From contig NZ_JABEPQ010000003.1 of the NCBI RefSeq assembly GCF_013041615.1, forward strand, positions 372,001-436,000: DNA of 64,000 bases. The letters are read 5' to 3'. The position numbers and the translations under genes were made by a program. Below are positions 1,837 to 63,660 of the stretch, in pieces (positions within the stretch are counted from its first letter, which is position 1; the number at the start of each line of letters is the position of its first letter). The stretch comes from Knoellia koreensis. GTDB taxonomy: Bacteria > Actinomycetota > Actinomycetes > Actinomycetales > Dermatophilaceae. The notes beneath the pieces were generated by a model. That model was not told the origin of the DNA and made no database searches. It worked only from the letters and a program-made list of their open reading frames with translations.

Positions 1837-2574
1837 TCAGCCCTGCGGGGTCGTCTCCCCCGAGCCCGCCGCCTTGACGACCCAGTCGAAGAGCGCCTGC
1901 TGGAACGGCAGCTGCGCGGCGTCCATCTCCGGATGCCATTGCACCGCAACGATATTCGCGTCGCGGGACTCGAAGGCCTCGATGATGCCGTCAGGCGTCG
2001 TCGCGCTGAGCAGCATGTCGTCGGCGAGCCGGTCGCAGGCCTGGTGGTGGTTGGACCAGCCCACGAGGGGTCCGGCGCCCATGATCTCCTCGAGCAGGGT
2101 GCCGGGCACGATGTCGACCTCGTGGGGGTTGTCGGCGTGCCTGACCGACGTCTCGTCGAAGTGGGCGAAGATCGTGCCGCCGAGGACGATGTTGAGCACC
2201 TGCATGCCCCGGCAGACCGCGAGGATCGGTATGCCGGCCGCGAGGGCCGCGCGCGTCACGGCCAGGTCTGCGGCGTCCTGCTCCGGCGGCGCATGTTCCT
2301 CGCGTGGGTGCACCTCGGGGACCCCGAACGGGCGCAGGTCGAGGTCGGCTCCGCCTTGCAGGACAACGGCATCCGCGAGCTCGACGAGCGCGGCTGCCCG
2401 CTCCGTGGTGTCTGGCCAGGCGAGGAGGGGCTCACCGCCGGCGCGGGTGATCGCGTCGACGAGCGTGCGTGGGACGAAGACGCCCTCGCGCTTGCGGCCG
2501 CCGATCTCGTCGGTCCACCGACCGGGGACCAGCACGAGGGGGCGATGCGGGGCACTCCGGTGAGCAGGCGGCAT
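1837..2574 (-). CDS. Gamma-glutamyl-gamma-aminobutyrate hydrolase family (peptidase C26)
   Basis: This 245-residue protein is a class-I glutamine amidotransferase of the PuuD type. The nucleophile elbow is AVCRGMQ (Cys about 139) and the catalytic His lies in QWHPE near residue 221; the N-terminal LVLVPGRW strand and the VLQGGADLD turn are also family hallmarks. PuuD hydrolyses gamma-glutamyl-GABA in putrescine breakdown, but no other putrescine genes are nearby, so the substrate is uncertain. It probably acts in the cytoplasm as there is no signal. The ATG at 2574 sits inside a GTATGCCG motif and has no Shine-Dalgarno, but a TAGCCT box lies 7 nt upstream, so the message is predicted to be leaderless. 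It is divergent from cydA. Confidence 0.88.
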   Translation of the reverse strand: MPPAHRSAPHRPLVLVPGRWTDEIGGRKREGVFVPRTLVDAITRAGGEPLLAWPDTTERAAALVELADAVVLQGGADLDLRPFGVPEVHPREEHAPPEQDAADLAVTRAALAAGIPILAVCRGMQVLNIVLGGTIFAHFDETSVRHADNPHEVDIVPGTLLEEIMGAGPLVGWSNHHQACDRLADDMLLSATTPDGIIEAFESRDANIVAVQWHPEMDAAQLPFQQALFDWVVKAAGSGETTPQG

Positions 2575-2581
2575 ACCCCTG

Positions 2582-2587
2582 AGGCTA
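2582..2587 (-). promoter_or_regulatory. -10 element for a leaderless transcript of the C26 amidotransferase
   Basis: On the minus strand TAGCCT is followed by 7 nt and then the ATG at 2574. With no ribosome-binding site present, transcription is expected to start at the A of the ATG. Confidence 0.5.
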
Positions 2588-2624
2588 TCGGCGGACGCCT
2601 GCCGGGCTCGCGACGACTTTCGAG

Positions 2625-2653
2625 GTGACAGTTCCTACTACACGTCGTAGTAT
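2625..2653 (+). promoter_or_regulatory. Predicted promoter of the cyd operon
   Basis: GTGACA (2625-2630, one mismatch to TTGACA) is followed by a 17-bp spacer and TAGTAT (2648-2653, a TAnnnT -10 box). The first dyad operator covers the spacer end and the -10, and the second covers the expected start of transcription near 2660. A GGAG 7 nt before the cydA ATG serves translation. This arrangement implies direct repression when the dyads are occupied. Confidence 0.55.
2636..2652. promoter_or_regulatory. Operator dyad 1 (TACTAC-N5-GTAGTA), candidate BlaI site
   Basis: TACTACACGTCGTAGTA has perfect 6-bp arms around 5 bp. It overlaps the predicted -10 of the cyd promoter. BlaI/MecI repressors bind short dyads built on TAC/GTA half-sites, and a BlaI-family gene closes this operon, so BlaI is the natural candidate; this is inference. 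Confidence 0.6.
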
Positions 2654-2654
2654 C

Positions 2655-2702: not shown

Positions 2703-4142
2703 ATGGACAACCTCGACCTCGCCCGTTGGCAGTTCGCCATCACCACCGTCTACCACTTCCTCTTCGTCCCCGTGACGATCGGGCTGTCGGCCGTGGTGGC
2801 CTGGTACCACTCGGCCTGGGTGCGCAGGCGGCGCCCGGACGACCTGCGGCTGGCGAAGTTCTTCGGCAAGCTCTTCACGATCAACTTCGCGCTCGGGCTG
2901 GTGACCGGCCTCGTGCAGGAGTTCCAGTTCGGCATGAACTGGTCGAGCTACAGCCGGTTCGTCGGTGACATCTTCGGTGCCCCATTGGCCCTCGAGGCGC
3001 TGCTCGCGTTCTTCCTCGAGTCGACCTTCCTCGGGCTGTGGATCTTCGGCTGGGGGCGCCTGCCCGAGAGGCTGCACGCCGCCTGCATGTGGATCGTCCA
3101 CGTCGGCACGCTGCTGTCGGCCTACTTCATCCTCGCCGCCAACTCGTTCATGCAGAACCCCGTCGGCTGGCGGTTCAACCCCGACACCGGGCGTGCCGAG
3201 CTGACCGACTTCATGGCCGTGCTGACCAACAAGGTGCAGCTGGTGACGTTCCCCCACATCGTCACGGCGGCATACATGGTGGGTGGCGCGACCGTCATGG
3301 CGGTCGCCCTGTGGCACCTGCGCCGCCGCGACGTCGGCGCGGACGCACCCATGTACCGCCGCTCCACCCGCCTCGGCGCGATCGTCACCCTCGTCGCGGC
3401 GATGGGCGTCGGGCTCACCGGCGACATCCAGGGCAAGATCATGACCGACGTCCAGCCGATGAAGATGGCTGCCGCGGAGGCGCTCTACGAGACGTCCGAC
3501 GGCCACGCGCCCTTCTCCCTGCTCACGATCGGCTCGCTCAACGGGCAGGAGGAGAAGTTCGCGATCACCGTGCCGAGCCTGCTCAGCTTCCTCGCGACCG
3601 GGCACTTCGACGGCACCGTCCAGGGCATCAACGACCTCAAGAAGGAGTACGCCCAGAAGTACGGCGAGGCCGGCAACCCGATGACGCGGGACGCGACCTA
3701 CACGCCCAACATCCCGTTGGCGTACTGGAGCTTCCGGCTCATGATCGGGGTCGGCATGTCGGCGGCGCTCATCGCCCTCGTCGTGCTGTGGGTGACCCGC
3801 GGCGACCGCATCCCACGGGCCAGGTGGTGGCACTGGGTGCTCATGGCGACGCCGCTCCTGCCGCTCTTCGGCAACAGCTTCGGGTGGATCTTCACCGAGA
3901 TCGGGCGGCAGCCGTGGCTGGTGTTCGGTGTCTACACGACGCAGTCCGGGGTCTCACCGTCGGTGTCGGCCGGTGACGTGGTGACGTCGATGGTCGTCTA
4001 CACGCTGCTCTACGGGGCGCTGGCCGTCATCGAGGTCAAGCTCTTCCTCAAGTACGTCCGGGCCGGCGCGCAACCCTTCGAGGAGCCGCCCAAGCCGGAC
4101 CACCACGACGACGAGGACGCCGAGCTGGCGTTCGCCTACTGA
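2703..4142 (+). CDS. cydA: Cytochrome bd ubiquinol oxidase subunit I
   Basis: The 479-residue polytopic membrane protein carries the quinol-oxidising site and hemes of cytochrome bd oxidase, reducing O2 to water with high affinity. His18 (TTVYHFLF) and the His in VTFPHIVTAAYM are the expected heme ligands; QPMKMAAAEAL opens the quinol-binding Q loop and GRQPW is the family signature. The length matches the short-Q-loop type found in actinobacteria and Bacillus rather than the 522-residue E. coli form. The C-terminus is an acidic, His-rich tail (DHHDDEDAE). It heads an operon with cydB, cydD, cydC, blaI and an M56 peptidase, behind a promoter with two dyad operators. Confidence 0.97.
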   Translation: MDNLDLARWQFAITTVYHFLFVPVTIGLSAVVAWYHSAWVRRRRPDDLRLAKFFGKLFTINFALGLVTGLVQEFQFGMNWSSYSRFVGDIFGAPLALEALLAFFLESTFLGLWIFGWGRLPERLHAACMWIVHVGTLLSAYFILAANSFMQNPVGWRFNPDTGRAELTDFMAVLTNKVQLVTFPHIVTAAYMVGGATVMAVALWHLRRRDVGADAPMYRRSTRLGAIVTLVAAMGVGLTGDIQGKIMTDVQPMKMAAAEALYETSDGHAPFSLLTIGSLNGQEEKFAITVPSLLSFLATGHFDGTVQGINDLKKEYAQKYGEAGNPMTRDATYTPNIPLAYWSFRLMIGVGMSAALIALVVLWVTRGDRIPRARWWHWVLMATPLLPLFGNSFGWIFTEIGRQPWLVFGVYTTQSGVSPSVSAGDVVTSMVVYTLLYGALAVIEVKLFLKYVRAGAQPFEEPPKPDHHDDEDAELAFAY

Positions 4143-5198: not shown

Positions 5199-5201
5199 GC
5201 C

Positions 5202-6806
5202 ATGCGACCGTTCGACCCGCGCCTGCTGCGCAGCATCCCGGAGGCCCGCCGGCCGCTGGTGCTGCTTGCCGTCGTGGGCACCGTCCAGGGCGTCGCCACG
5301 ATCGCGACGGCGTTCGCGTTGGCACACCTCGCGGTCGCAGTGGTGCGTGGTCAGTCGCTGGGTGAGCCCGCGGCATACCTGTTGGGGCTGTTCGTGATTC
5401 GCGGCATCCTCGCCTTTCTGGGCGAACGTGTCGCGGCCCGCGGCGGCGTCGCGGTGAGCACCGCCCTGCGCCGCCGGCTCGTCTCGCGCTGGCTGTCGCT
5501 GCCAGCCGAAGATCGCCCCGAGCCGGGCGTCGCCGTCACCCTCGCGACCCAGGGGACGACGAGCGTCGAGCCGTATGCCGCGCGCTTCCTCCCAGCGCTC
5601 GTCACCGCCGCGGTGGTGCCGGCGCTGGCGCTGGTCGCCCTCGTGGCCGTCGACTGGGTGAGCGCGCTCGTCGTGGCCCTCACGTTGCCGCTGCTGCCGG
5701 TCTTCGCCGCACTCATCGGTGCGGCCACGAGGGACGAGACGCAGCGGCGCTGGAGCTCACTCGCCGGCCTGTCCGGGCACTTCCTCGACGTCATGCGCGG
5801 GCTGCCCACCCTCGTCGGTTACGGGCGCGCCGAGCGCCAGGTCGACACCATCGCCGAGGTGAGCGGCCGCCACCGGCGCGCGACGATGGCGACCCTGCGG
5901 CTCGCCTTCCTCAGCTCGGCGGCGCTGGAATTGCTCGCCACGATCTGCGTGGCCATCGTGGCGGTCTTCGTCGGGCTGCGGCTGGCCTACGGGTCGATGG
6001 AGCTGCTGCCGGGACTCGTCGCGATCCTGCTGGCACCCGAGGCCTACTGGCCGGTGCGCCGGGTCGGTGCCGAGTTCCACAGCGCAGCCGACGGCACGGC
6101 CGCCCTCGAGAGTGCGCTCGACGAACTCGAGGCAGCGACGGCCGCGCCGGCACGGGCTCCCGCGACGTCAGGCACGGTCGTGCTCACTCGGCTCTCCTAC
6201 ACCTACCCCGGCAGCAGCCGCCCGGTGCTCGACGGGGTCGACCTCGAGGCGGGACCGGGGCTGACGGTCGTGACCGGCGAGTCCGGCGTGGGCAAGTCCA
6301 CCCTCCTCGAGCTCGTGGCCGGCCTGCGGACCCCGGACGCCGGCACCATCGAGGCCCCGGAGGCGCACCTGGTGACCCAGCGCCCGTTCCTCATGACCGG
6401 CACCGTGCGGGCCAACCTCACTCTGGGACAAGGGCGCCCGGTCTGCGAGGACGAGCAGTGGGCCGCCCTGCGCGCCGTCGCACTGGACTCACTGGTCGAG
6501 TCACTCCCCCACGACCTCGACGAGACGCTGGGCGACGACGGGCGCGGCCTGTCGGCGGGTCAGCGGGCCAGGCTGGTGCTCGCCCGGGCGCTGCTCAGCG
6601 ACGCACCCCTGGTGCTGCTCGACGAACCCACGGCCCACCTCGACGACGAGTCGGTCACGGTGGCGCACAGGGCGATTCGCGACCTGGCGGCCACCCGCAC
6701 GGTCATCGCGGTCACCCACCGGCCGGAGCTCGTGGCCCTCGCCGACCACCACGTGCACCTGCGCGCCCACGCGAGCACGCGGCATACCGAGGAGGTCCCG
6801 GCATGA
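5202..6806 (+). CDS. cydD: Cysteine/glutathione-type ABC exporter CydD
   Basis: CydD is one half of the heterodimeric ABC transporter needed to assemble cytochrome bd, exporting thiols in E. coli. In the 534 residues, a six-helix membrane domain (about 1-300) precedes a nucleotide-binding domain with Walker A GESGVGKST, signature LSAGQRARL and Walker B LVLLDEPTAHLD. A conspicuous LMRGLPTLVGYGRA coupling segment lies between. The gene follows cydB by 3 bp and overlaps cydC by ATGA. Its last codons (ASTRHTEEVPA) lie outside the conserved fold and are written by a 19-bp sequence, 6771-6789, that recurs exactly in an unrelated gene at 11545. Confidence 0.95.
   Translation: MRPFDPRLLRSIPEARRPLVLLAVVGTVQGVATIATAFALAHLAVAVVRGQSLGEPAAYLLGLFVIRGILAFLGERVAARGGVAVSTALRRRLVSRWLSLPAEDRPEPGVAVTLATQGTTSVEPYAARFLPALVTAAVVPALALVALVAVDWVSALVVALTLPLLPVFAALIGAATRDETQRRWSSLAGLSGHFLDVMRGLPTLVGYGRAERQVDTIAEVSGRHRRATMATLRLAFLSSAALELLATICVAIVAVFVGLRLAYGSMELLPGLVAILLAPEAYWPVRRVGAEFHSAADGTAALESALDELEAATAAPARAPATSGTVVLTRLSYTYPGSSRPVLDGVDLEAGPGLTVVTGESGVGKSTLLELVAGLRTPDAGTIEAPEAHLVTQRPFLMTGTVRANLTLGQGRPVCEDEQWAALRAVALDSLVESLPHDLDETLGDDGRGLSAGQRARLVLARALLSDAPLVLLDEPTAHLDDESVTVAHRAIRDLAATRTVIAVTHRPELVALADHHVHLRAHASTRHTEEVPA
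6771..6789 (+). repeat. 19-bp copy of the GCGGCATACC repeat in the cydD C-terminal tail
   Basis: GCGAGCACGCGGCATACCG is identical to 11545-11563. Here it encodes the dispensable tail STRHT of CydD. It contains the window-wide CGGCATAC octamer. Confidence 0.75.
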
Positions 6807-8410
6807 GGCTCGCCGACCGCCAGACCATCGCCGCCGGTCTGCTCGGAGCCGTCGCCGTGTCCTCGGGTGTGGCCCTTACCGCGACGTCCGGCTGGCTCAT
6901 CGTGCGGGCCAGCGAGAAGCCGGTGATCCTCACGCTGCTCACAGCGATCGTGGCGGTGCGCGCGTTCGGGATGGCGCGACCGGTGTTCCGCTACTGGGAG
7001 CGGCTGCGGTCGCACGACGCGGCCCTGGCCGACCTCGCCCGCGAGCGCACGAGTCTGTATGCCGCGTTGATCCCCCTGACGCCCGCGCGCCTCGTGCGCC
7101 GGGGCCGGGCCGCCATGCTCACCGGTGTCGTCGACGACCTCACCGACCGGGTCGAGGCGCGGGTGCGCGTGACGGTCCCGGCGGTCGCGACCACGCTGAC
7201 GGCGGTGTTCGCGACGGTGCTGTGCTGGCTGGTCGAACCGGCCGCGGGCCTGACGGTCGCGGCGCTGACCGTCGTGGTGGCCCTCACGACCTGGGTCGCC
7301 TGGCGGGTCGAGACGCGTGGGCATGACGACCTCGGTGCCGCGCGGGCCGAGGTCGGCCGGGTGTCCGAGCTGGTGACGTCGCAGGCCTTGGAGCTGCAAG
7401 CGATTGGGGCGCAGGAGGCGGCGACCGGGTGGCTCGACGACGCACACGCGCGGCTCGACCGTGCGGTCCGCCGACAGGTGACCGGGCGGGCGCTGGCTGC
7501 GGCGGTGCTGCCGGCCGCGACCGCGGTGGCGACGGTGGTCTGCGCGGTGGTGGCCGCCGGAAGCGACCGCTCAGCGCCGGTGCTGGGCCTGCTCGTGCTG
7601 GCGCCGTTCGCCCTCGCCGAGGTGTTCGCGCCCCTGCCCGACGTGGCGCGCGCGCTGGCCCGGGCCCAGGCCGCCGACCGCGACCTGAAGACCCTCCTCG
7701 ACGCCCAGCCAGCGGTCAGGGCCACGACCCGCGGGCGGGTGCTGGAGCACGGCTCCGTGCCGCACCTGCGGCTGTCCGGGGTCACTGCGTCGTGGGACGG
7801 CACCCGGCGTGCGGCCGGGCCGGTCGACCTCGATGTGGCGCCGGGTTCGGTGGTGGCCGTCACCGGCCCCTCGGGTGTCGGCAAGTCGACGGTCCTCGCG
7901 GTGCTGGCCCGTCAGCTCGACCCGGAGTCGGGCAGCTACACCATCGACGGGACGGACGCCCTCGACCTGCCGCTGAACCAGGTGCGCGGCCTCTTCGCGA
8001 TCGTCGACGACGAGCCCCACGTGTTCGCGACGACCCTGCGCGAGAACCTGCGCTTTGCCCGCCCGTCGGCCACGGACGACGACCTGCGCGCAGCCCTGGC
8101 TTCGGCTGGGCTCGGCGGGCTGGACGCGGACCTCGACACCAGGCTCGGCACCGGGGGCCGTGGCCTGTCCGGCGGCGAGCGCGCCCGGTTGTCGATCGCG
8201 CGGGCGCTGCTGTCCGGTCGCCCGGTGCTGTTGCTCGACGAACCCGTGGCCCACCTCGACCACGCGACTGCCGTGGCCGTCCTCGACGACCTCATGGCTC
8301 ACCGGGGCGGTCGCAGCGTCGTCGTGGTGAGCCACCGGCCCGAAGGCCTGCACGGGGCGCACGGCATCATTGATCTTCGCGACCATGCCCCGATGGCCGC
8401 CGCAGGATGA
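6803..8410 (+). CDS. cydC: Cysteine/glutathione-type ABC exporter CydC
   Basis: CydC is the partner of CydD, a 535-residue membrane plus ATPase half-transporter. The start is the ATG at 6803 that overlaps the cydD stop as ATGA; the frame stays open further upstream, but that part is the cydD sequence read out of frame. The protein opens with a hydrophobic helix (AAGLLGAVAVSSGVALTATSG), and the C-terminal domain has Walker A GPSGVGKST, signature LSGGERARL and Walker B VLLLDEPVAHLD. The pair is required to assemble active bd oxidase. The blaI gene begins 7 bp after its stop, so the regulator is part of the same transcript. Confidence 0.95.
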   Translation: MRLADRQTIAAGLLGAVAVSSGVALTATSGWLIVRASEKPVILTLLTAIVAVRAFGMARPVFRYWERLRSHDAALADLARERTSLYAALIPLTPARLVRRGRAAMLTGVVDDLTDRVEARVRVTVPAVATTLTAVFATVLCWLVEPAAGLTVAALTVVVALTTWVAWRVETRGHDDLGAARAEVGRVSELVTSQALELQAIGAQEAATGWLDDAHARLDRAVRRQVTGRALAAAVLPAATAVATVVCAVVAAGSDRSAPVLGLLVLAPFALAEVFAPLPDVARALARAQAADRDLKTLLDAQPAVRATTRGRVLEHGSVPHLRLSGVTASWDGTRRAAGPVDLDVAPGSVVAVTGPSGVGKSTVLAVLARQLDPESGSYTIDGTDALDLPLNQVRGLFAIVDDEPHVFATTLRENLRFARPSATDDDLRAALASAGLGGLDADLDTRLGTGGRGLSGGERARLSIARALLSGRPVLLLDEPVAHLDHATAVAVLDDLMAHRGGRSVVVVSHRPEGLHGAHGIIDLRDHAPMAAAG

Positions 8411-8417: not shown

Positions 8418-8852
8418 ATGGCACGCAAGTCGATCAACCGGCTCGGCGAGCTCGAGCGCGCCGTCATGGAGACCGTGTGGGCCATGACCACCCCCGAGCG
8501 TCGCACCGTGTCGGTGCGCGAGGTGCACCAGGCGTTGTCGACGGGCCGGGACATCGCCTACACGACGGTTATGACGGTGATGGGCCGGCTGGCTGAGGGT
8601 GACCTGCTCAGCCGGCAACGGTCGGGACGTGCCTACCTGTATGCCGCGGTGGGCACGCGGGAGGAGCTCACCGCCTCGACGATGCGCGAGCAGCTCAACA
8701 CCGTCAATGCCGAGGACCGCCGTGCGGCCATCCTGCACTTCCTCGATGACGCTTCGGCCGACGAGATCAGTGAGCTCAAGGCGGCCCTCGCTGAGGTCGA
8801 GGCGCGGCAGGCGGGCTCGATCGGCAAGGACAGCAAGGGAGTTCGTCGCTGA
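8418..8852 (+). CDS. BlaI/MecI/CopY-family transcriptional repressor
   Basis: The 144-residue protein is a winged-helix repressor of the penicillinase-repressor family: LGELERAVMETVWAM (about 7-21), the recognition region AYTTVMTVMGRLAEGDLLSRQRSGRAYLY (about 46-74) and a C-terminal helical dimerisation part. Family members are dimers that leave DNA when cut by a partner M56 protease. That partner is encoded immediately downstream. I chose the ATG at 8418 because the family starts a few residues before LGELE and a GATGAGG site precedes it. Its position inside the cyd operon and the two dyads in the cyd promoter suggest it controls bd oxidase and itself; no beta-lactamase gene is present. Confidence 0.9.
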   Translation: MARKSINRLGELERAVMETVWAMTTPERRTVSVREVHQALSTGRDIAYTTVMTVMGRLAEGDLLSRQRSGRAYLYAAVGTREELTASTMREQLNTVNAEDRRAAILHFLDDASADEISELKAALAEVEARQAGSIGKDSKGVRR

Positions 8853-9721
8853 CCACCGTCCTGCCACTGGTCGGGCTGGCGGCGCTGGCGGTGCTGCTCA
8901 CCGGTCCGGCGCAGCGGCTCATGGCCCGGATGCACCGGTTCCGCCGTGCACCGCGTGAGGCGCTGCTGGTCTGGCAGGCGGTGTCGCTGGGTGGTGTGCT
9001 CGCGGCGCTGTCGCTCGCGCCGGCCTCGGTGGCCGGCTTCCGGGAGGCGCCGACGTGGCTCGTCTGGCTGGGGCTGCTCATCGCCGCGGCGATGGTGGCG
9101 CGGCTGCTGTGGTCCGGTCACACCGTCGGCTCAGGGATCCGCGCCGACCGGCGCCGCCACCGCGACCTCGTCGACCTGCTCGGCACCCACGCCGACCCCG
9201 TCCACGGCACCCAGGTGCGGGTGCTCGCCCACCCGACGCCGACGGCATACTGCCTGCCCGGTCTGCGTCGCCGGGTCGTCCTGAGCGAGGGCGCCCTCGC
9301 TGCGCTGCCCGCCGACGAGCTCACCGCCGTCCTCGCCCACGAGCGTGCCCACCTGCGGGCGCGGCACGACCTGGTGCTCGAGTTCTTCACGGTCCTGCAC
9401 CGGTCGGCCCCGCCGTGGCTGCGCGCCCCCGAGGCGCTGCGCGAGGTGCGGCTGCTCATCGAGGTGCTCGCCGACCGGGCGGCCCGCCGCACCGCCGGTG
9501 AGGTGCCGCTGGCCCGCGCCCTCGTGACGCTCGCGCGCGGCGTCCACCCGCAGGAGGCCCTGGGGGCCGGTGGTGGGTCCGGGGGCGAGTCGACCACCGT
9601 GGCGCGCATGGCACTGCTGGCCCAGCCGACCGCCGGGTTCGGAATGCGGCTCGTGATGACGGCGTTCGGGCTGGTGGTCGTGGCCGCCCCGGTGATCCTG
9701 CTGGTCATGACGCTGGTTTGA
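8849..9721 (+). CDS. M56-family membrane metallopeptidase (BlaR1-like, no sensor domain)
   Basis: The protein has the zinc-protease motif AHERAHLRARHD (HExxH with HERAH), with GALAALPADELTAVLAHERAH matching the BlaR1/MecR1 M56 block. Hydrophobic segments flank it, including one at the extreme C-terminus (LVVVAAPVILLVMTLV). It lacks the extracellular penicillin-binding domain of true BlaR1, as is usual for actinobacterial relatives. It should cleave or inactivate the BlaI protein encoded just upstream. The start is unclear: GTG 8891 is the first standard start, but the frame upstream encodes a good first membrane helix (TTVLPLVGLAALAVLL) beginning at a CTG at 8849 that overlaps the blaI stop and follows an AAGGGA site by 8 nt. 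I favour the CTG. Confidence 0.75.
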   Translation: MTTVLPLVGLAALAVLLTGPAQRLMARMHRFRRAPREALLVWQAVSLGGVLAALSLAPASVAGFREAPTWLVWLGLLIAAAMVARLLWSGHTVGSGIRADRRRHRDLVDLLGTHADPVHGTQVRVLAHPTPTAYCLPGLRRRVVLSEGALAALPADELTAVLAHERAHLRARHDLVLEFFTVLHRSAPPWLRAPEALREVRLLIEVLADRAARRTAGEVPLARALVTLARGVHPQEALGAGGGSGGESTTVARMALLAQPTAGFGMRLVMTAFGLVVVAAPVILLVMTLV

Positions 9722-12104: not shown

Positions 12105-12581
12105 TCAGCGCTCGGCGAGCTCGCGGATGCGTCCCAGCGACCGGCGCATGCCGTCCTCGAGCTCGACGGTGTGCTCGGGGTTGCCGCCGAGGAGCAGTTC
12201 GGTGAAGCGGGCGGCAAAGTCCTTGACGCCGTGCGGAGTTCGGCGCCGTGAGGTGAGCCGCGTGGTGCCCGAGCCGGTCGGTTCGAGGTCGTAGGACCAG
12301 AGCGCGTCGTTGTCGAGGACGCGCCACTCGATGCGCCGGCCGACGTCGTATGCCGTGACTCGGGACCGCGTCGGCCACACCATGAGCCCGCGCCGGTTGA
12401 CCCCGACGAAGCGGGTGCCGACACCGACCGCCCCGTCGCCGAGGACGACCACCTTGCGGCACTCCGGTGACCACTCGCCGGTGCGGCGCACGTCGGAGAC
12501 GACCTCCCAGACGCGCTCAGGCGGTGCGGCGATCTCGACCGACGCGTCCAGTGGGCGGGTGGTGTAGGGCATACGCGGCAT
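12105..12581 (-). CDS. SRPBCC-superfamily (polyketide cyclase/START-like) protein
   Basis: This 158-residue cytoplasmic protein has the SRPBCC opening strand and helix (DASVEIAAPPERVWEVVSDVRRTGEWSPEC), followed by alternating beta strands and a long C-terminal helix (GMRRSLGRIRELAE). The family binds lipids or hydrophobic ligands in a deep cavity; the ligand is unknown. An internal ATG 9 bases further in (MPYTTRPL) is an equally good start, and both ATGs sit in copies of the CGGCAT motif. It converges with the preceding gene (5 bp apart) and diverges from purB. Confidence 0.78.
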   Translation of the reverse strand: MPRMPYTTRPLDASVEIAAPPERVWEVVSDVRRTGEWSPECRKVVVLGDGAVGVGTRFVGVNRRGLMVWPTRSRVTAYDVGRRIEWRVLDNDALWSYDLEPTGSGTTRLTSRRRTPHGVKDFAARFTELLLGGNPEHTVELEDGMRRSLGRIRELAER

Positions 12582-15061: not shown

Positions 15062-15143
15062 GGTCGGCTCTCCGTCCTCTCCTCCTCCGCCAGTAGAGCC
15101 CGCAGGCAGCCGGCGGCGCCTCCGTCAACTGACGCAGCCCAGC

Positions 15144-22236: not shown

Positions 22237-22257
22237 CCCGAGTCGTATGCCGCCGCG

Positions 22258-45579: not shown

Positions 45580-45653
45580 CCGATGGCCCGGCGGGCGTCC
45601 GCCACGTGATTACCCGTTGCCTCCCAGCCCGGTCCGGTCCGATCCTTTCCCGT

Positions 45654-51439: not shown

Positions 51440-51464
51440 CTGGCCTCGTCAAGTCGACCACGCG

Positions 51465-51481
51465 GCATACCCGCCCCGTGC
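51465..51481 (+). repeat. Intergenic full-length repeat copy
   Basis: CGACCACGCGGCATACC lies between efeO and zwf. The same 17 bases occur in the right arm of the 24457-24486 hairpin, and the element at 62684-62700 matches except for the first base. Confidence 0.65.
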
Positions 51482-55203: not shown

Positions 55204-57057
55204 TCAGAACGTCGGGTACACGTCCATGGTCTGGCCGCCGGTTCCCACGTAGTTGGCGCCGGTGGAGTACTGGCTGTCGTTGACCAGAGGCTTGAACTCG
55301 AAGGCCTGCCCCGCCGGGATGCGCTCGAGCTCGAACTCCCAGACGTCAGGGGCGATGTTTCGCGCTCCACGACCGTAGGTCCACGTGAAGGGATAGGTGT
55401 TGCCACGTATGGCGATCGAGTTTCCGAGTCCCACGTTGTAGTGGACGCGGATCTTGGTCACGTTCCGAGCCGGAGGCGTGTATGCCGTGACGGAGCCTGG
55501 CACGTAGACCTTCGCCTCGTGCTCACCCAGGGTGGTGGTGATCTGCTTGCCGGTGGTCCCACCGGCCTGCACTGTCACCGTGTCGGCGGTGTTCATGATG
55601 TTGGTGAGGACCGTGCCGACGGTCAGGCTGCTCTCGGCCCGCAGAGGAATCGTCCGCGTCTGGTTGGGCCACGTGCCGTTGATGAGCGTCACCGCCTCGG
55701 CCCCGCTGCTGTCGACTCGCCGCGAGAAGCCGTAGACCTGCTGGTCCTTCCACATCTCGCGCTGGGTGCCAACGCGCAGCGCGGGATACGCCTTCTTCAT
55801 GGCGTTGAGCCGCTTGATGTGCGTGTAGATCGTCGACGTTTCGCTGAACGATGTCATGTCCTTGCGATTGTCCTTGTTCGCGATCGGCACCTCGTTGGGG
55901 TTGCCATTGCCGTCGTCGGCCTGCTCGGTTCCGTAGTAGATGACCGGCACCCCACGTGAGGACAAAAGGAAGGTCAGCGCCGAGCGGAGCCTCTGGTAGT
56001 TGTCATCAGCCCGCGTGAGAAACCGAGCACGATCGTGGTTGTCGAGGAAAGTCTCGAGCCGATTGGCGTTGGTGTACTTGTAGTCCTGGTCGAACAGACC
56101 CCCGAGGTTCCGCATGTCACCATCAGCCACGAGCGTGTCCCTGACGGTGAAGAAGTATGGGAAATCCAGGACCCCCCATTCGTACTTCTGGTACTCGGAG
56201 ACATAGTCGATGTCCCCCACAAAAACCTCTCCAAAGGTGGGCACACCCATGGTCTGCTCGAACGACTGCAGCCAGGGCTTGGGCACGGACCGGGCCGCGT
56301 CGACGCGGATCCCGTCAAATCCCATGCCTATCCAGTCCTTGTAGGTGGCCATGAGGTAGCTGGACACGGTGCTGTTGGACTGGTCCAGGTCATCGAGACC
56401 GCCAAGGTCACAGTTCTCGATCTGCGTCTGGGTCTCTGACCCGTCGAAGCGACAGTCTCCGTTGTGGTGGAAGTACGCCGAGTTGTCGAGCGGCGATGCC
56501 GGCTTGTTCGTCGAGGGGCTGTATGTCGTCGACGTACCGGCCAGATAGTCGGCCGTGTGGTTGGGGACGACGTCCAGGATCATTTTCAGACCCATACTGT
56601 GGGCGGTGTCGATGAGGGTCTGCAGCTCTGCCTTGGAGCCGAAGTGGGAGTTGGGTGTCGCGAAGTCCTTTGTGAAGTAGCCGTGGTAGCTGGCTTCCTT
56701 GCCGTCTCGGCTGAGCGGCTGCTGTTCAGAGACTGGTGAGAGCCAGATCGCTGTCACGCCAAGGTTCTTGATGTAGGACAGCTTGTTCGTGAGCCCCGTC
56801 CAGTCACCTCCGTGATAGAAGCCGAGGTCGCTGGGGTTGTACTCACCATTGCCGGTGTTGTCGTTGGCCGTGCTCCCGTTGGAAAACCGGTCGACGAGCA
56901 CTTGATAGATGACGTCACCCTCAGTCAGAGGGCCCGGCCCTGCGGCGGGCGACGCAGTGGCGGTGGTTGCGTTGACACCGGTCGTGGTCAACGCCGCAAC
57001 AGCGACGAGACCCGTCGCTACGACACCGGCGACTCGTGTCCTGCGTGGCATTCTCAT
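55204..57057 (-). CDS. Secreted alpha-amylase (GH13) with C-terminal starch-binding-like domain
   Basis: The 617-residue enzyme starts with a signal peptide (RTRVAGVVATGLVAVAALTTTGVNATTATASPA). The GH13 barrel (about 45-440) has VIYQVLVDRF, DVVPNHTADY, nucleophile Asp in GFDGIRVDAAR, acid/base Glu in FGEVFVG and FLDNHDR. An all-beta region follows, and the last 100 residues (VTKIRVHYNVGLGNSIAIRGN..WEFELERIPAGQAFEFKPLV) form a CBM20/25-like domain. It degrades extracellular starch to maltodextrins for the importer in the same operon. ATG 57057 has AGGAG 10 nt upstream. Base composition is visibly lower in GC than its neighbours (58% in the line starting 56221), which hints at later acquisition. 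Confidence 0.9.
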   Translation of the reverse strand: MRMPRRTRVAGVVATGLVAVAALTTTGVNATTATASPAAGPGPLTEGDVIYQVLVDRFSNGSTANDNTGNGEYNPSDLGFYHGGDWTGLTNKLSYIKNLGVTAIWLSPVSEQQPLSRDGKEASYHGYFTKDFATPNSHFGSKAELQTLIDTAHSMGLKMILDVVPNHTADYLAGTSTTYSPSTNKPASPLDNSAYFHHNGDCRFDGSETQTQIENCDLGGLDDLDQSNSTVSSYLMATYKDWIGMGFDGIRVDAARSVPKPWLQSFEQTMGVPTFGEVFVGDIDYVSEYQKYEWGVLDFPYFFTVRDTLVADGDMRNLGGLFDQDYKYTNANRLETFLDNHDRARFLTRADDNYQRLRSALTFLLSSRGVPVIYYGTEQADDGNGNPNEVPIANKDNRKDMTSFSETSTIYTHIKRLNAMKKAYPALRVGTQREMWKDQQVYGFSRRVDSSGAEAVTLINGTWPNQTRTIPLRAESSLTVGTVLTNIMNTADTVTVQAGGTTGKQITTTLGEHEAKVYVPGSVTAYTPPARNVTKIRVHYNVGLGNSIAIRGNTYPFTWTYGRGARNIAPDVWEFELERIPAGQAFEFKPLVNDSQYSTGANYVGTGGQTMDVYPTF

Positions 57058-57062: not shown

Positions 57063-58142
57063 TCACGCTCCTGTTCCTCGGACGGGGGTCTTGCGTGGAG
57101 TGGCGGTGGACTCGCGGACGATGAGCGCCGTGTGCAGCGTGTGGTGGTGGTGTCGTGAGCTGCCTCGGATCGCCGAGACGAGGAAGTCGGCAGCGACCCG
57201 CCCCTTCGCCTCGATCGGTTGCCGGACGGTGGTGAGCCGCGGTCGCAGCCAGACCGCCTCGGGCTGGTCGTCGTAACCAGCGACCGAGACGTCGCCGGGG
57301 ACCGAGATCCCGAGCTCGTATGCCGCGTCGAGAACTCCTGCGGCGAGGATGTCCGAGAGCGCGAAGACAGCCGTGGGACGGTCGTCCGAGTCGAGGATGT
57401 CCAGACCCGCCTTGTAGCCCTCCGCCCGCGTGGCCCGCGCCTCCACGACGCGCAGCCGGACGTCGGAGGCGACAGGTCCAAGCCCGTCGAGAGCGTCATC
57501 GACGCCGGCCATGCGTCGGCCCAGCGGCCCGCGCGCCGCATCGATGACGCTGTCGGGCCCGGCCTCGAACGCCAGCACCGTGATGTCCCGATGCCCCAGC
57601 TCGAGGAGGTGGGTCATCATGGCGGCCGCACCAGCCTGGTCGTCGACCTCGACCGTGGGTACGTCCTCGTCGCTCTCGCTGTCGACGAGGACGAACGGGA
57701 CTCCCCGTCGCTCCAGTTCGGCCACCTCACCGCGGTCGCGCTCGAGCCCGGTCACGACGAAGCCGTCGACTGCTGCATACGGGATGGCGTCGAGCATCGA
57801 GTTCCGCAAGGGCGGTACGAGCAGGAGGGTGAAACCTTCCTGGTGACAGACCTGCCCCACCCCGACGAGGAACTGCGCGTAGTAGGGGTTCTCCATCGCC
57901 TGCGGAATGTCTTGCGGCAGAAGGATTCCCAATGAGTTGGTGCGGCCCTGGACGAGCATCCGGGCTACCGGATCAGGCCGGTAACCTAGGCGGGCTGCCA
58001 CCTCGAGGATCCGGTCACGAGTCGCGGCTGAGAGCCGGCCCGGGTCGTTGAATGCGAATGACACCGCCGTTCGCGACACCCCCGCGGCGGTGGCAACGTC
58101 GCGGGACGTGGGCCGTTTGGCTCCATCAGTCGAGCCGGACAA
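57063..58142 (-). CDS. LacI-family regulator of the maltodextrin operon
   Basis: The 359-residue repressor has a LacI helix-turn-helix (about 12-65: TSRDVATAAGVSRTAVSFAFNDPGRLSAATRDRILEVAARLGYRPDPVARML) and a periplasmic-binding-like sensor domain (about 70-345) including SLGILLP and VPGDVSVAGYDDQPEAVWLRP. It probably senses a maltodextrin. The start is a TTG at 58142 overlapping the preceding gene by 17 bp, but AAGGGGAG lies 6 nt upstream, which makes it convincing. It is the fifth gene of the operon it likely represses through the palindrome at 62621-62638. Confidence 0.9.
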   Translation of the reverse strand: MSGSTDGAKRPTSRDVATAAGVSRTAVSFAFNDPGRLSAATRDRILEVAARLGYRPDPVARMLVQGRTNSLGILLPQDIPQAMENPYYAQFLVGVGQVCHQEGFTLLLVPPLRNSMLDAIPYAAVDGFVVTGLERDRGEVAELERRGVPFVLVDSESDEDVPTVEVDDQAGAAAMMTHLLELGHRDITVLAFEAGPDSVIDAARGPLGRRMAGVDDALDGLGPVASDVRLRVVEARATRAEGYKAGLDILDSDDRPTAVFALSDILAAGVLDAAYELGISVPGDVSVAGYDDQPEAVWLRPRLTTVRQPIEAKGRVAADFLVSAIRGSSRHHHHTLHTALIVRESTATPRKTPVRGTGA

Positions 58143-59533: not shown

Positions 59534-60349
59534 TCACTCCTTGACCCCGGTCGCAGCCAAGCCGCGTACCAGGCTCCGTTGCAGGTAGACGAACACGACG
59601 ATGGCGGGCACCGCTGCCACGACCGTCCCCGCCATGAGGTACTGCGGGTATGGCGCGTACTTGCTCGTGAAGGCCGCCAGGCCGAGCTGGATGGTGCGGT
59701 ACTGGTCATCGCTCGTCACCAGCAATGGCCAGAGAAAGTCATTCCAGGCGAAGAGGAAGCTGAACACGGCAGTACTGGCGAGCGCCGGCTTGCACAGTGG
59801 CAGGAGCACCCGCACGAGCACCTGCATCCGGTTGGCACCATCGATCCGTGCGGCCTCGTCGAGTTCGCGCGGCAGCGACAGGAGGTAACCCCGGATGACG
59901 ACGATGCCGAACACGTCCGCAAGTCTCGGCACGATCAGGGCGGTGTAGCTGTTGAACCACCCGAACCGGATGACGAGGTCGAACGCAGGCAGGACGGTGA
60001 GGAAGGTCGGCACCAGCATCGTGGCCACCAGACCGAGGAAGACGACGTTGCGACCGGGAAAGCGCAGCCGGGCGAGGGCGTATGCCGCGAGAGTGTCCAG
60101 GACGAGGTGGCCGGCCACGATGCCCGCCGTCATGACGACCGAGTTGACGTAGTAGTGACCGAAGGGCGCTGCGGACAGCGCCTGGGGGTAGTTGCCCCAC
60201 TCGAACTGATGCGGCACCAGGTAGGGGCCGGTGTTGACCTTGTCGGCCGACTTGAGGCTGGTGGTGATCATCCATGCGAAGGGTGCGACGACGAGCAGGC
60301 TCAGGCCCAGCAGGACTGCGTGACGACTGAGTTGCCGCAGGGCGCTCAT
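59534..60349 (-). CDS. Maltodextrin-type ABC permease (MalG family)
   Basis: The 271-residue membrane protein has six helices and the EAA loop IPRELDEAARIDGANRMQVLVRVLLPLCKPAL, which contacts the ATPase. It forms the inner-membrane channel with the MalF-like protein. An ATGA overlap links the two genes. No ATPase gene is in the operon, so a shared MsiK/UgpC-type ATPase encoded elsewhere must drive it, as is common in actinobacteria. Confidence 0.92.
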   Translation of the reverse strand: MSALRQLSRHAVLLGLSLLVVAPFAWMITTSLKSADKVNTGPYLVPHQFEWGNYPQALSAAPFGHYYVNSVVMTAGIVAGHLVLDTLAAYALARLRFPGRNVVFLGLVATMLVPTFLTVLPAFDLVIRFGWFNSYTALIVPRLADVFGIVVIRGYLLSLPRELDEAARIDGANRMQVLVRVLLPLCKPALASTAVFSFLFAWNDFLWPLLVTSDDQYRTIQLGLAAFTSKYAPYPQYLMAGTVVAAVPAIVVFVYLQRSLVRGLAATGVKE

Positions 60350-61326
60350 GCCTCAGCCCTGCCGCCGAGGCGCCACTGCACCCAGGTGAGCCCAAAGACC
60401 AGGGCGAACCCGGCATACGCGATCGTCGCTCCGTAACCGAACTGTCCGGTGACGAACGCCGTGCGGTAGACGAGGAAGCCGACGACCTCCGTGCCACCGA
60501 GTGGGCCACCCGAAGTGAGCTGGTAGACGAGGTCGAAGCCCTGGAACGTCGCCACGAGTGCCTGGACCACGACGAAGAACGTCATCGGTGCCAGCAGCGG
60601 AAAGGTGATTCGACGCATCGTCTGGAACGGTCCCGCCCCGTCGAGGGCGGCCGCCTCGTAGACCGAGGTGGGGATGGTCTGCATCGCGGTGAGGTAGAGA
60701 ACAGTGTTGAGCCCCAGCTGTTTCCACACGGTGAGCAGGGTCAGGCACAACAGCGCCAGGTGCGGGTCTCCCAACCAGTTGGGTGCGCCGAGCCCCACCG
60801 CCGAGAGGCCGGCGTTGACCGGGCCGGACGCACCGAAGAGGTACTTCCAGACCGCGGCGGCTGCGATCGAGGACGTGACCACGGGCAGGAAGAATGCCGT
60901 GCGGTAGACAGCTCGACCGCGAATCGCCTTGTTGAGCAAGGCCGCAGCGCCCAGTCCGGTGACCACGCTGAGCACGCTGACGCCGACCCCGTAGAGGAGG
61001 GTGACGACCATCGAGTTGCGGAAGTCGGCGTCGCCTGCGAGCTTGCGGTAGTTGTCGAGCCCTACGAACGGCTTGTCCGGGCTGATGCCGTCCCAGTCGG
61101 TGAGGGAGAGCAGCCCGGTGGCAACCAGGGGGTAGACGACGAACAGGCCGATGACCACGAGGGCGGGCGCAAGGCAGGCGACGGCCGTCAGCACCTCTGT
61201 CCGCGAGTAGCGCTCGCGCGAACGGGAACGGAATCGCACTCGCGGACGCGGTCGCGTGGTGGGCACGGCGGGTTCACCACGAGTGTGCGAAACCCTGGTC
61301 ACCGTGCCCACCACGCTGTTGGTCAC
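60346..61326 (-). CDS. Maltodextrin-type ABC permease (MalF family)
   Basis: This 326-residue protein has a basic N-terminus, a first helix near 45-67 (VACLAPALVVIGLFVVYPLVATGLLSLTDWDG) and five more, with the EAA loop IPTSVYEAAALDGAGPFQTMRRITFPLLAP. It pairs with the MalG-like permease. Its GTG start overlaps the binding-protein stop as GTGA, so translation is coupled along the operon. Confidence 0.92.
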   Translation of the reverse strand: MTNSVVGTVTRVSHTRGEPAVPTTRPRPRVRFRSRSRERYSRTEVLTAVACLAPALVVIGLFVVYPLVATGLLSLTDWDGISPDKPFVGLDNYRKLAGDADFRNSMVVTLLYGVGVSVLSVVTGLGAAALLNKAIRGRAVYRTAFFLPVVTSSIAAAAVWKYLFGASGPVNAGLSAVGLGAPNWLGDPHLALLCLTLLTVWKQLGLNTVLYLTAMQTIPTSVYEAAALDGAGPFQTMRRITFPLLAPMTFFVVVQALVATFQGFDLVYQLTSGGPLGGTEVVGFLVYRTAFVTGQFGYGATIAYAGFALVFGLTWVQWRLGGRAEA

Positions 61327-62603
61327 TTGGCTGCGAGGATGCCGTTGACCTGGGACTCAGCGTCAGCCAGCGCCTTGTCGACAGGCTTGCCGTGCAGCGC
61401 CTGTTCCACCTGCTTGGCGAACGCGAGCGACACCTGTGGGTAGAGAGGGGTCGCCGGTCGCGCCTTGGCCGTCGGCAGGGCGTCCACGAACGGTTGCAGC
61501 TCAGGCAGGTTCGTCTTCACGAAGTCCTTGTAGGTGGAGGAGTCGGCGACCGTCTTGCGCACTGGCAGGAAGCCCGTCTTCTCGCTCCAGGACTCGCTCT
61601 GCGCCGGGTCGACGAACCAGGTCAGGAAGGCGCCTGCAGCCTTCTGCTTGTTCTTGTCCGCGGCGAAGACGACGGCTTGTTCGCCACCCATGTTGGTCGC
61701 CGGCTTTCCGTTGCTGGGGTATGGAATCTGGGCGACGCCGAAGTCGAACGGGGGCTTGGGCTTCCAGATGCCAGCCATCCACGAACCCTCCTGGGCCGAG
61801 GCGGCCTTGCCCTTCTCGAACTCACCCCACTGGGTCAGTGGGCTGTCCTTGGTCTTGACCAGGTCCACCCAGTACTGCAGCGCCTCCTTGCCCGCCTCGG
61901 AGTTGAACGCGGCCTTGGTGTTGTCGTCGTTGAGGAACTCACCGCCCGCCTGCCACAAGGACACCTGGAAGTTCCACGTGACGCCCTCACCGTCGGCGCC
62001 GGGGGTGGTGAACAGCTCGAACCCGGGCATACCGGTCTTGGCCCGGATCGTCGCTGACGCTGCCTTGAGCTCATCCCACGTCTGCGGGGGCTTGTTGGGG
62101 TCGAGCCCGGCCTTGGTGAAGAGCGTCTTGTTGTACATCCACGCCATCGTGTTGGACGAGACCGGCACCGAGACCTGCTTCCCGTCCTGCTGGCCGAACT
62201 TGAGCATCTCGGGGTAGATGTCGGACCAGGTGCTCTCGGGCACCAGCGACTTCAGGTCGACAGCCTTGCCGGTCTGGGCCATCCGAGGCACGGTGACCAG
62301 GTCGCCGATGACCACGTCGGGCAGGGTGCGCGACTGGGCGGCCGCCTGGAGCTTGGTGAGCAGATCGGCGCCGGGCACGTTGACGAGCTTGATGGTGGTG
62401 CCGGCATGAGCACCCTCGTAGGCCTTGGCCATCGCCGCGAAGGTGTCAGCGTTGTTGCCGTCCCAGTAGTGCCAGACGGTCAGCTCGGCCTTGGCCGGGC
62501 CGGCGTCGGAGCCGGCGTCGGACGAACCGCCGCACGCGGCGGTGGTTAGTACCGCGATCCCGGCTGCGGCGGCGATCACCGCACGCACAGACTTCGTTGT
62601 CAT
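61323..62603 (-). CDS. Maltodextrin-type ABC substrate-binding lipoprotein
   Basis: The 426-residue protein has a lipoprotein signal (SVRAVIAAAAGIAVLTTAACGGSS, Cys near 24) and an SBP_bac_1 fold: ELTVWHYWDGNNADTFAAMAKAYEGAH, SNTMAWMYNKTLFTKAGLDPNKPPQTWDELKAAS and WNFQVSLWQAGGEFLND. It captures the oligosaccharide for the MalFG-like permeases. It is the first gene of a six-gene leftward operon. GGAGG 4 nt before the ATG is a strong ribosome-binding site, and a LacI-type palindrome lies 18 bp upstream. Sugar identity rests on the two GH13 enzymes in the operon. Confidence 0.92.
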   Translation of the reverse strand: MTTKSVRAVIAAAAGIAVLTTAACGGSSDAGSDAGPAKAELTVWHYWDGNNADTFAAMAKAYEGAHAGTTIKLVNVPGADLLTKLQAAAQSRTLPDVVIGDLVTVPRMAQTGKAVDLKSLVPESTWSDIYPEMLKFGQQDGKQVSVPVSSNTMAWMYNKTLFTKAGLDPNKPPQTWDELKAASATIRAKTGMPGFELFTTPGADGEGVTWNFQVSLWQAGGEFLNDDNTKAAFNSEAGKEALQYWVDLVKTKDSPLTQWGEFEKGKAASAQEGSWMAGIWKPKPPFDFGVAQIPYPSNGKPATNMGGEQAVVFAADKNKQKAAGAFLTWFVDPAQSESWSEKTGFLPVRKTVADSSTYKDFVKTNLPELQPFVDALPTAKARPATPLYPQVSLAFAKQVEQALHGKPVDKALADAESQVNGILAAK

Positions 62604-62620
62604 GGATCCTCCATCACGAT

Positions 62621-62638
62621 TAGTAACTCGTGTTACTA
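62621..62638. promoter_or_regulatory. LacI-family operator of the maltodextrin operon
   Basis: TAGTAAC-TCGT-GTTACTA is an 18-bp dyad with perfect 7-bp arms, 18 bp before the binding-protein ATG. A minus-strand TTGACA at 62670-62675 may be the -35 of the promoter, though no good -10 follows at 17 bp. The LacI protein encoded in the operon is the likely ligand. Confidence 0.65.
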
Positions 62639-62683
62639 GCCGCAAAGAGTGCGCCTGCGGGAGAGGCGTTGTCAAGACCCGGG

Positions 62684-62700
62684 GGTATGCCGCGTGGTCA
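62684..62700 (-). repeat. Extended repeat copy overlapping a stop codon
   Basis: Read on the minus strand this is TGACCACGCGGCATACC; its TGA is the stop codon of the 2-hydroxyacid dehydrogenase gene. The copy at 29685-29701 uses a stop codon in the same way. Confidence 0.65.
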
Positions 62701-63660
62701 CCTCGCGGGCGCGGCCACCACGTCGACGGGGTTGCCGTCGGCGTACGCGAGCACCTGGTCCGCGGCTGCGGCATACAGGGTCTCGAGCACGTCGCGCTCG
62801 ACGTAGCCGAGGTGCGGGGTGGCGGTGACCTGCGGCAGGGCGAGCAGCGGGTCAGAGGCCCCGAGCACCGGCTCGTCGTCGAAGACGTCGATGGCTGCGC
62901 GCCCCGGACGCCCGGCCAGCAGGGACGCCTCGAGCGCACCTGGCGCGACCAGAGCGGCGCGAGAAGTGTTGACGAACAACGCATCCGAGCCCATGCGACC
63001 AAGATCCTCGGCCGTCACGATGCCCCGGGTCGACTCATTCAGAGGGAGGTGAACCGACAGCACGTCGCTCATGGCGAACAGGGCAGCGCGGTCGGGCGCC
63101 ACGGCATACCCCTGCTCGCGTGCCTGCTCGAGCGACCCCTCGCGACCCCACACGAGGATGTCCATGCCGAAGGCCGTGCCGTAGCGCGCGAGGAGTCCGC
63201 CGATCCGGCCGAGCCCCCAGATGCCCAGCGTGCGACCGGCGAGCCGTCGCCCGACGGTGTGCTGCCACTGACCGGAGCGCAACCGCGCGGCCTCCTCGGG
63301 CAGGTTGCGTTGGGCCGCCAGGATGAGCGCCCACGTCAGCTCCGCCGTGGTCACCGGGTCGCTCAGACCGCCGGCGCAGACCGTAACGCCTTGGGCCGCA
63401 AGGGCATCGAGGTCGAGGTGCGCGGTGCTGCGACCGGTCTGGGTGACGAGCCGCACTGTGGTGAGGCGTTCGGCCACCTCTCGGGGCACCCGGGTGCGCT
63501 GCTGGAGCAGCACCGCAGCGTCGAAGCCGTCGAGCCGCGCGACGAGCTCATCGCCCCGGACCGAGTCGGCAAACGCGACGACCTCGTGACCGGCGAGGCG
63601 ACGCGCCGCCTGCGTCTGCGCGAAGGCTCCCGCATAGTCGTCCAGGATCGCGATCCGCAT
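62698..63660 (-). CDS. D-isomer-specific 2-hydroxyacid dehydrogenase family protein
   Basis: The 320-residue NAD(P)-dependent oxidoreductase has the Rossmann motif TLGIWGLGRIGGLLARYG (about 143-160) and the catalytic Arg in FVNTSRAALV, Glu in DVFDDEPV and His in ATPHLGYVE. Family members reduce 2-keto acids or oxidise D-2-hydroxyacids such as phosphoglycerate or glyoxylate; the substrate is not evident. The ATG follows TAGGCT by 6 nt with no ribosome-binding site, so the message is likely leaderless. It is upstream of, but separated by the LacI operator from, the maltodextrin operon. Confidence 0.88.
   Translation of the reverse strand: MRIAILDDYAGAFAQTQAARRLAGHEVVAFADSVRGDELVARLDGFDAAVLLQQRTRVPREVAERLTTVRLVTQTGRSTAHLDLDALAAQGVTVCAGGLSDPVTTAELTWALILAAQRNLPEEAARLRSGQWQHTVGRRLAGRTLGIWGLGRIGGLLARYGTAFGMDILVWGREGSLEQAREQGYAVAPDRAALFAMSDVLSVHLPLNESTRGIVTAEDLGRMGSDALFVNTSRAALVAPGALEASLLAGRPGRAAIDVFDDEPVLGASDPLLALPQVTATPHLGYVERDVLETLYAAAADQVLAYADGNPVDVVAAPAR

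Follow-up and report, generated by a model that had tools for sequence, protein, structure and literature searches.

The window analysed here, a stretch of 64,000 nt from Knoellia koreensis (assembly GCF_013041615.1, contig NZ_JABEPQ010000003.1, positions 372,001 to 436,000), carries many dispersed copies of the octamer CGGCATAC, which we describe in the following as a putative uptake sequence. Exact octamers, as CGGCATAC or its opposite-strand form GTATGCCG, were scored over the full length of the window, and 57 were found, compared to a mean of 0.99 and a maximum of 4 in 100 dinucleotide shuffles and a zero-order expectation of 2.28. The heptamer GGCATAC occurs 59 times. The octamers are divided into 27 of CGGCATAC and 30 of GTATGCCG. 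The original prediction, made by eye from the letters of the window, had given about 59 heptamers and about 57 octamers where about 2 would be expected by chance, split nearly evenly between the strands, and these figures were accurate. It had also claimed a longer form between genes; this form, GACCACGCGGCATACC, is present three times, each time with a copy scored as intergenic or at a gene edge. A maximal-order Markov test on the window was uninformative because the sub-words nearly all belong to the motif itself.

Intergenic copies lie on the forward strand at 2569-2576, 15143-15150, 21139-21146, 29693-29700, 43264-43271 and 51463-51470, the last of them inside the long form, and on the reverse strand at 22245-22252 and at 62685-62692, the latter again inside the long form. 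The third long form holds the forward copy at 24479-24486, which is the right arm of an inverted pair (24457-24486, between two called genes) able to form a hairpin with the reverse copy at 24457-24464 as its left arm. Another close pair, in +/- arrangement and within a called gene, is made up of the copies at 27425-27432 (forward) and 27440-27447 (reverse). The first of these belongs to the six copies which had been named as using the ATA codon, and all six are indeed in the Gly-Ile frame, the other five being on the reverse strand at 2229-2236, 17774-17781, 31698-31705, 46393-46400 and 49515-49522. One reverse copy, at 45652-45659, overlaps the start of a called gene (ATG-CCG at 45654). The remaining forward copies are found at 3268-3275, 5371-5378, 6780-6787, 9243-9250, 11554-11561, 18218-18225, 28871-28878, 33798-33805, 37612-37619, 38736-38743, 39920-39927, 44814-44821, 45898-45905, 46618-46625, 50460-50467, 53778-53785, 60411-60418, 62769-62776 and 63102-63109. 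The remaining reverse copies are at 5573-5580, 7057-7064, 8639-8646, 11268-11275, 12348-12355, 14143-14150, 16340-16347, 23471-23478, 25510-25517, 28437-28444, 33700-33707, 37441-37448, 39055-39062, 48085-48092, 48223-48230, 51159-51166, 53622-53629, 55480-55487, 57318-57325 and 60080-60087.

The whole genome (4.28 Mb in 15 contigs) holds 1983 + 2003 = 3986 copies, about 0.93 per kb, against 54 + 60 = 114 copies of the reversed word that served as control. The genome-wide count, proposed in the original prediction as a check, is thus far above the control, and the outcome that would have spoken against the motif, a count near expectation, does not apply; copies by the hundreds or thousands, well beyond chance, are also typical of the DNA uptake sequence (DUS) and the uptake signal sequence (USS). 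There is no overall orientation bias, which is again a trait of DUS and USS, and no regional strand bias was detected across 23 stretches with 504 kb in total (chi-square 7.0, 23 degrees of freedom). The octamer is not its own reverse complement and is hence non-palindromic. Taken together, all copies are more evenly spaced than random, with a coefficient of variation (CV) of 0.84 in the sampled stretches.

The core of the word consists of the eight bases. It tends to have GACCACG in its 5' flank and C in its 3' flank, and this tendency is clearest in the intergenic copies. In 464 kb we counted 312 singly mismatched forms versus 401 exact copies, and a number of near misses below that of exact copies is also a feature of DUS and USS; 276 of the mismatches fall at the three A/T positions and 36 are spread over 15 variants at the five G/C positions. 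Close inverted pairs, with 3-30 bases between the copies and counted in one orientation only, occur at 108 places in the genome, many of them as perfect hairpins, and the reversed control gave none. The word had been called hairpin-forming, which is true for these pairs and not for a single copy, as a non-palindromic octamer forms no hairpin by itself. Among 10 hairpins in 23 sampled stretches, eight were located in tandem or convergent gaps and so downstream of a gene, none in a divergent gap, one inside a gene, and one had no left gene in view; divergent gaps make up 14 of the 50.5 kb of gap DNA in this sample. The density of the word was 2.06, 1.77 and 2.38 per kb in tandem, divergent and convergent gaps respectively.

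To see where selection acts we used 365 genes from 18 stretches of the source genome, window included, with 385 copies; the genes were called by a custom script and not by a standard gene caller. Within genes there are 294 of the 385 copies, 135 along the gene direction and 159 opposed to it, while 100 synonymous-codon shuffles of the same genes gave a mean of 11.1 and a maximum of 20. Intergenic DNA has 2.06 copies per kb and coding sequence 0.82, a 2.5-fold difference, and such a non-coding excess together with some inverted pairs at gene ends is what DUS and USS display as well. The word contains 143 of the 227 TAT codons and 27 of the 39 ATA codons of the sampled genes, both of them rare codons, and its two commonest frames are TAT-GCC and GCA-TAC. 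Since synonymous shuffling leaves 11 coding copies instead of 294, and since the intergenic density is 2.5-fold higher, the claim that selection acts on DNA and not on protein is well supported. Exact conservation was found for 49 of 116 copies aligned in the congeners G001-G008, compared to 22-28% for other 8-mers. Over all 13 genomes aligned the figure is 57 of 155, with 6 of 21 in G009/G010, 2 of 6 in G027 and 0 of 12 in G011/G033.

The copies further show an arrangement by strand which is new here. In three sample sets, namely the source genome, same-genus stretches and other genera, copies on the same strand avoid each other within about 1 kb, and this avoidance is absent between opposite strands. 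In the source genome 92 same-strand pairs were found at 60-1000 bp, while 156.1 +/- 8.9 were expected from label shuffling; the corresponding values are 10 against 25.4 in the same-genus stretches and 87 against 116.8 in the other genera, and in each set 0 of 1000 shuffles were as low. Because these pairs are depleted, a copy is more often than not followed by one of the opposite orientation (300 of 438 neighbours in the source genome, 75 of 118 in the same-genus stretches and 202 of 334 in other genera), and in the source genome the share of alternation is 65-75% at 60-1500 bp and 52-54% farther apart. For opposite-strand pairs in the source genome, binned by distance over 60-1000 bp, the ratio of observed to expected ranges from 0.96 to 1.34, with more scatter in the two smaller sets (0.53 to 2.44 and 0.82 to 1.34). 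The same-orientation share is 0.284 for the motif, and 0.534 +/- 0.050 with a lowest value of 0.444 for 43 control words of similar frequency that have no 6-mer in common with it. Same-strand gaps in the source genome have a mean of 2.0 kb and a CV of 0.66.

It should be noted that eight of the 20 same-genus stretches, from the word-poor genomes G009 and G010, and the weak loci L058 and L076 were initially excluded from the spacing test; the results stand with the excluded stretches restored. The eight G009/G010 stretches taken alone are too thin, with 27 copies, 10 of 19 neighbours alternating and 0 same-strand pairs where 0.9 were expected. The same-genus set is also partly dependent, as eight of its stretches (L151-L158) lie around the serS region that part of the window covers too. 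A polar model in which each copy serves one side was rejected, no clear asymmetry between +/- and -/+ neighbours being seen beyond 200 bp. It seems as if the copies form two independent series, one per strand. Such a strand-wise demand is plausible because in the transformation of Haemophilus influenzae one strand is imported through ComEC (PMC7811141), and because Neisseria gonorrhoeae shows a strand preference with single-stranded DUS DNA (PMC12061091). The literature passages searched hold no description of same-strand avoidance for DUS or USS.

On mobile-looking DNA, of plasmid- or conjugation-like character, 11 copies were found in 139 kb, compared to 461 copies in 504 kb of core (0.08 vs 0.91 per kb; p 7e-35), so the word is nearly absent from such stretches, and DUS and USS are likewise under-represented on recently acquired or mobile DNA. 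The mobile set comprises eight stretches, most with ParA, ParB, resolvase, recombinase, transposase or TraG-type genes; two of them, L241 and L254, were pooled as mobile-looking though no mobility gene was shown in either. If only those stretches are counted for which a mobility gene was seen, either in the stretch or elsewhere on its contig, there are 8 copies in 107 kb; leaving out the three that were selected once low counts in their neighbours had been noticed gives 7 copies in 82 kb. The core counts leave out L036, L037 and L049, and two stretches were counted as neither core nor mobile, L037 with 9 copies in 20 kb and L243 with 6 copies in 6.5 kb. The 16-base long form is present in 10 stretches of viral contigs and the reversed form used as control in 35, so there is no viral enrichment. 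L037 has two called proteins of 260 aa close to the start of contig C1, about 1.8 kb apart (6821-7603 and 8613-9395), whose first 50 residues are identical.

Genomes were classed as positive or negative by density and by the ratio to the reversed word, with cut-offs of our own. Among 186 genomes of the family, which we take to be GTDB's Dermatophilaceae, from 53 genera, 107 were positive, 66 negative and 13 intermediate. An initial search covered 58 relatives, and the 22 of them that belong to other families of the order gave counts equal or close to those of the control. A sample of 396 genomes drawn evenly across the phylum contained four family members, three of them strongly positive; strong enrichment in this sample was confined to family members. 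The highest non-family genome of this draw, from a list read by eye, was G478 with 0.09 per kb. This 1.8 Mb genome from another family has 161 copies of CGGCATAC and 30 of the reversed word, a mild excess outside the family, and several other non-family genomes, none above 0.07 per kb, reach two to three times their control counts, which are small.

Judged from ComEC loci, which span up to 22 kb, the positives include Humibacillus xanthopallidus (DSM 21776, 13 copies in 22 kb) and a metagenome-assembled Phycicoccus genome (L055, 8 copies), and Arsenicicoccus bolidensis was weak (6 copies), while the negative loci include Intrasporangium flavum, Dermacoccus abyssi and a second Phycicoccus-labelled record (L052); NCBI places Humibacillus and Arsenicicoccus in Intrasporangiaceae. 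Negative genomes also occur within otherwise positive genera (G151, G127 and G065). In a tree built from the ComEC of 24 family members, four changes of the word label are required, and positives stand on both sides of the root, which is a midpoint root only; we suggest on this basis that the word is probably of old origin with several subsequent losses. The word CGGCGTAC was tried as a possible dialect and rejected, since neighbouring GTAC words are also enriched and the flanks do not match. Over whole genomes it reaches 2216 copies in G033 and 1359 in G034, which is high, and a moderate 1011 in G009 and 865 in G010. It is denser inside genes than between them (0.64 vs 0.26 per kb in G033 and, by a small margin, 0.34 vs 0.28 in G034), and codon usage is therefore the simpler account; in this comparison of densities G029 and G024 had no gene calls, and G012, G018, G019 and G020 were poorly covered.

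The check for com and tad genes put forward in the original prediction gave a positive result, and as expected for the host of an uptake sequence the genome has ComEC, ComEA and Tad/Flp genes. The gene for ComEA (SLBB + HHH) adjoins comEC, and ComEC was detected in 57 of 58 genomes searched. A chromosomal Tad cluster (L033) has the order tadA, tadB, tadC, a small protein, TadE, TadF-like and TadG-like, and a second cluster (L032) has TadA and a T2SSF protein, with pilin genes not among the called genes. TadF is our own label based on the N-terminus (cf. the Micrococcus luteus row in PMC6370729), and the Pfam TadE score of the protein lies below the cut-off. The gene so labelled was matched in 165 of the 186 family genomes and the second TadA in 184 of them; no TadF match was obtained for 4 of the 107 positives and for 13 of the 66 negatives (Fisher p 0.001, uncorrected for kinship). 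TadF and either TadA were rejected as the deciding gene, being present in most word-negative genomes. A type IV pilus was rejected as partner, because full-length PilB-type matches are confined to G015 and G035 among 36 family genomes. In the word-bearing congener G004 the ComEC match falls into two adjacent pieces in different frames (C1:1517076-1517881), and comEC may be broken there. In the source genome, extra Tad-like clusters, apart from the chromosomal ones, lie on word-poor mobile-looking DNA (L036 2664-10631 and L049 4146-13707; C8 island and C15), with a T2SSE ATPase and a large LysM protein according to Pfam and small TadE-like genes recognised by eye only.

The word is thus a real, family-wide signal at the level of DNA, and in the features tested it agrees with established uptake sequences, save that it lacks a tight link to those competence genes that were tested. 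We suggest that CGGCATAC, with GACCACGCGGCATACC as its long form, is a putative DUS/USS-like uptake sequence for natural transformation, and on the sequence evidence we regard this as probable. The word would mark DNA of the same family, and a competence machine made up of a Tad/Flp pilus, ComEA and ComEC would prefer the marked DNA over foreign DNA, after which biased uptake and recombination would spread and maintain the word wherever genes permit. Because ComEC imports one strand, we infer that the word may act per strand, so that a copy in one orientation would serve one strand over roughly 1 kb and each strand would carry its own series, at a spacing of about 2 kb in the source genome. 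In this proposal the uptake preference, the receptor and the strand-wise mechanism are all postulated. Further, we speculate, with somewhat more doubt than conviction, that the word might be a third independently evolved self-DNA tag, the first Gram-positive and the first Tad/Flp-coupled one, and that it might be read per strand with a copy needed every 1-2 kb, in which case the spacing would record that the strand to be imported is selected, or oriented, by the machine at the tag.

Several results weigh against an uptake sequence. ComEC is present with or without the word, and 53 of 66 word-negative genomes keep TadF, which therefore fails to explain who carries the word; this is the weakest joint of the argument. 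Nor did any receptor candidate track the word. In 11 of the 66 negative genomes, sampled with 20-100 kb each, no clear alternative word (dialect) was seen. The singly mismatched forms, at 312 to 401, are relatively commoner than in H. influenzae, for which 764 are given alongside 1471 exact USS (PMC1939737). Scarcity on mobile-looking DNA, finally, fits any genome-wide signature, Chi or HIP1 included.

Chi is the main rival, and we find it unlikely. In this reading the octamer would be read on one strand by a helicase-nuclease, thereby protecting or recombining the cell's own DNA ends, and an enzyme of the AdnAB/AddAB type is proposed because RecBCD is often absent. Chi is likewise a non-palindromic, very over-represented octamer, scarcity on mobile-looking DNA would suit it, and same-strand avoidance would also follow from its one-strand reading. 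RecC, however, is absent in 10 of 10 other same-genus word-positive genomes (G001-G010) and was matched in 46 of 107 positives against 37 of 66 negatives; as RecC does not follow the word, a Chi of the RecBCD type was rejected. Chi is biased to the leading strand, whereas the word has no regional strand bias over the 23 stretches, and the intergenic excess and hairpin pairs are traits of uptake sequences which to our knowledge have not been described for Chi. A site of the HIP1 (highly iterated palindrome) kind, serving methylation, repair or chromosome packing via a protein that binds double-stranded DNA, appears more doubtful still. The word resembles HIP1 of cyanobacteria (GCGATCGC) in being a dispersed and highly over-represented octamer. 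Its occurrence throughout the genome in either orientation, with about one copy per kb, and the even spacing of all copies would agree with such a role. HIP1 is, on the other hand, a palindrome tied to methyltransferases that recognise its core (PMC4390886), while CGGCATAC is non-palindromic, and avoidance confined to the same strand would not be expected of a site that is recognised alike on either strand. The original prediction had compared the word to both DUS and HIP1. The DUS half of this comparison fits in the density of the word and its non-palindromic form, in the excess between genes and the inverted pairs, in the scarcity on mobile-looking DNA, in the family-wide spread with losses and in the presence of competence genes, the exception being that possession of the word is not settled by those competence genes that were tested; the HIP1 half fits poorly, given the palindrome, the methyltransferase link and the short-range difference between orientations found here.

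Two further accounts can be set against the counts within and between genes. If the word served to terminate transcription or acted as an RNA element, its function would reside in the hairpins, and single copies would be their decayed halves. The hairpins downstream of genes point in that direction; this support is weak because divergent gaps, where none was found, make up 14 of the 50.5 kb of gap DNA. We consider a terminator very improbable, as the 108 hairpins account for about 216 of the 3986 copies, most sampled copies are inside genes and run with them (135) or against them (159), and the types of gap differ little in density. A preference for codons or codon pairs, in the form of Tyr-Ala and Ala-Tyr, is refuted. 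It has in its favour that the two commonest frames read TAT-GCC and GCA-TAC; against it, shuffling among synonymous codons does away with nearly all coding copies, the dipeptides stand at 1.00 (Tyr-Ala) and 1.08 (Ala-Tyr) of expectation in the sampled genes, TAT and ATA are rare, and the density is higher between genes. Full explanation by such a preference had been named as an outcome that would overturn the motif, and it does not apply.

Uptake sequences have been described as special to Neisseria and Pasteurellaceae (PMC3630211, PMC7811141), and a literature search limited to open-licence papers gave no actinobacterial uptake sequence in the passages it returned. The DUS of Neisseriaceae (GCCGTCTGAA, receptor ComP) resembles the present word in its thousands of copies, non-palindromic form, preference for permissive intergenic regions, family-wide range and inverted pairs, which in the case of DUS are linked to terminators (PMC3630211); the distribution of DUS has also been used to find conjugative elements (PMC7371117). 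In contrast, the word here is unrelated and belongs to another phylum, Tad/Flp genes take the place of the type IV pilus with ComP, no dialects were found, and same-strand avoidance is present. The USS of Pasteurellaceae (AAGTGCGGT / ACAAGCGGT) is similar in density at about 1 per kb, with 1014 USS10 per Mb in H. influenzae 86-028NP, and in the number of close inverted pairs, with 109 USS10 pairs within 14 bp in that strain (PMC7811141) compared to our 108, counted at 3-30 bases and in one orientation; singly mismatched forms are fewer than exact ones in both (PMC1939737). It differs in the word itself, in the host, which here is actinobacterial, in the pilus and in the flanks, where the consensus is weaker here and lies mainly 5' of the core. 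The com/tad transformation system of Micrococcus luteus shares ComEA and ComEC with the source genome, and the gene order of L033 is as in PMC4322843; a search of that paper found no mention of an 'uptake sequence'.

If the word is an uptake sequence, self-tagged DNA exchange would have evolved more than twice, and a simple rule for transforming word-bearing bacteria would suggest itself, namely to add the word to donor DNA. The receptor of Tad-type competence would also become open to genetic search. Same-strand spacing provides a test, by sequence only, of one-strand reading by an uptake machine, and it can be applied to Neisseria and Haemophilus genomes as well.

Some minor observations were made along the way. 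In the same-genus loci L152-L158 words around CGGTGTAGTCGA are strongly enriched (CGACTACA 25 times where 2.4 were expected), perhaps as a second short repeat. In genome G014 (L163, L186 and L187) CGAAACGTCA and ACGTTTCGCG form a repeat with ten copies each in 60 kb, compared to an expectation of 0.1. In the window itself, a called protein of 1429 aa at 30991-35280 has GH20 and alpha-L-fucosidase domains and, in addition, domains of the lectin-like and F5/8 type C kinds.

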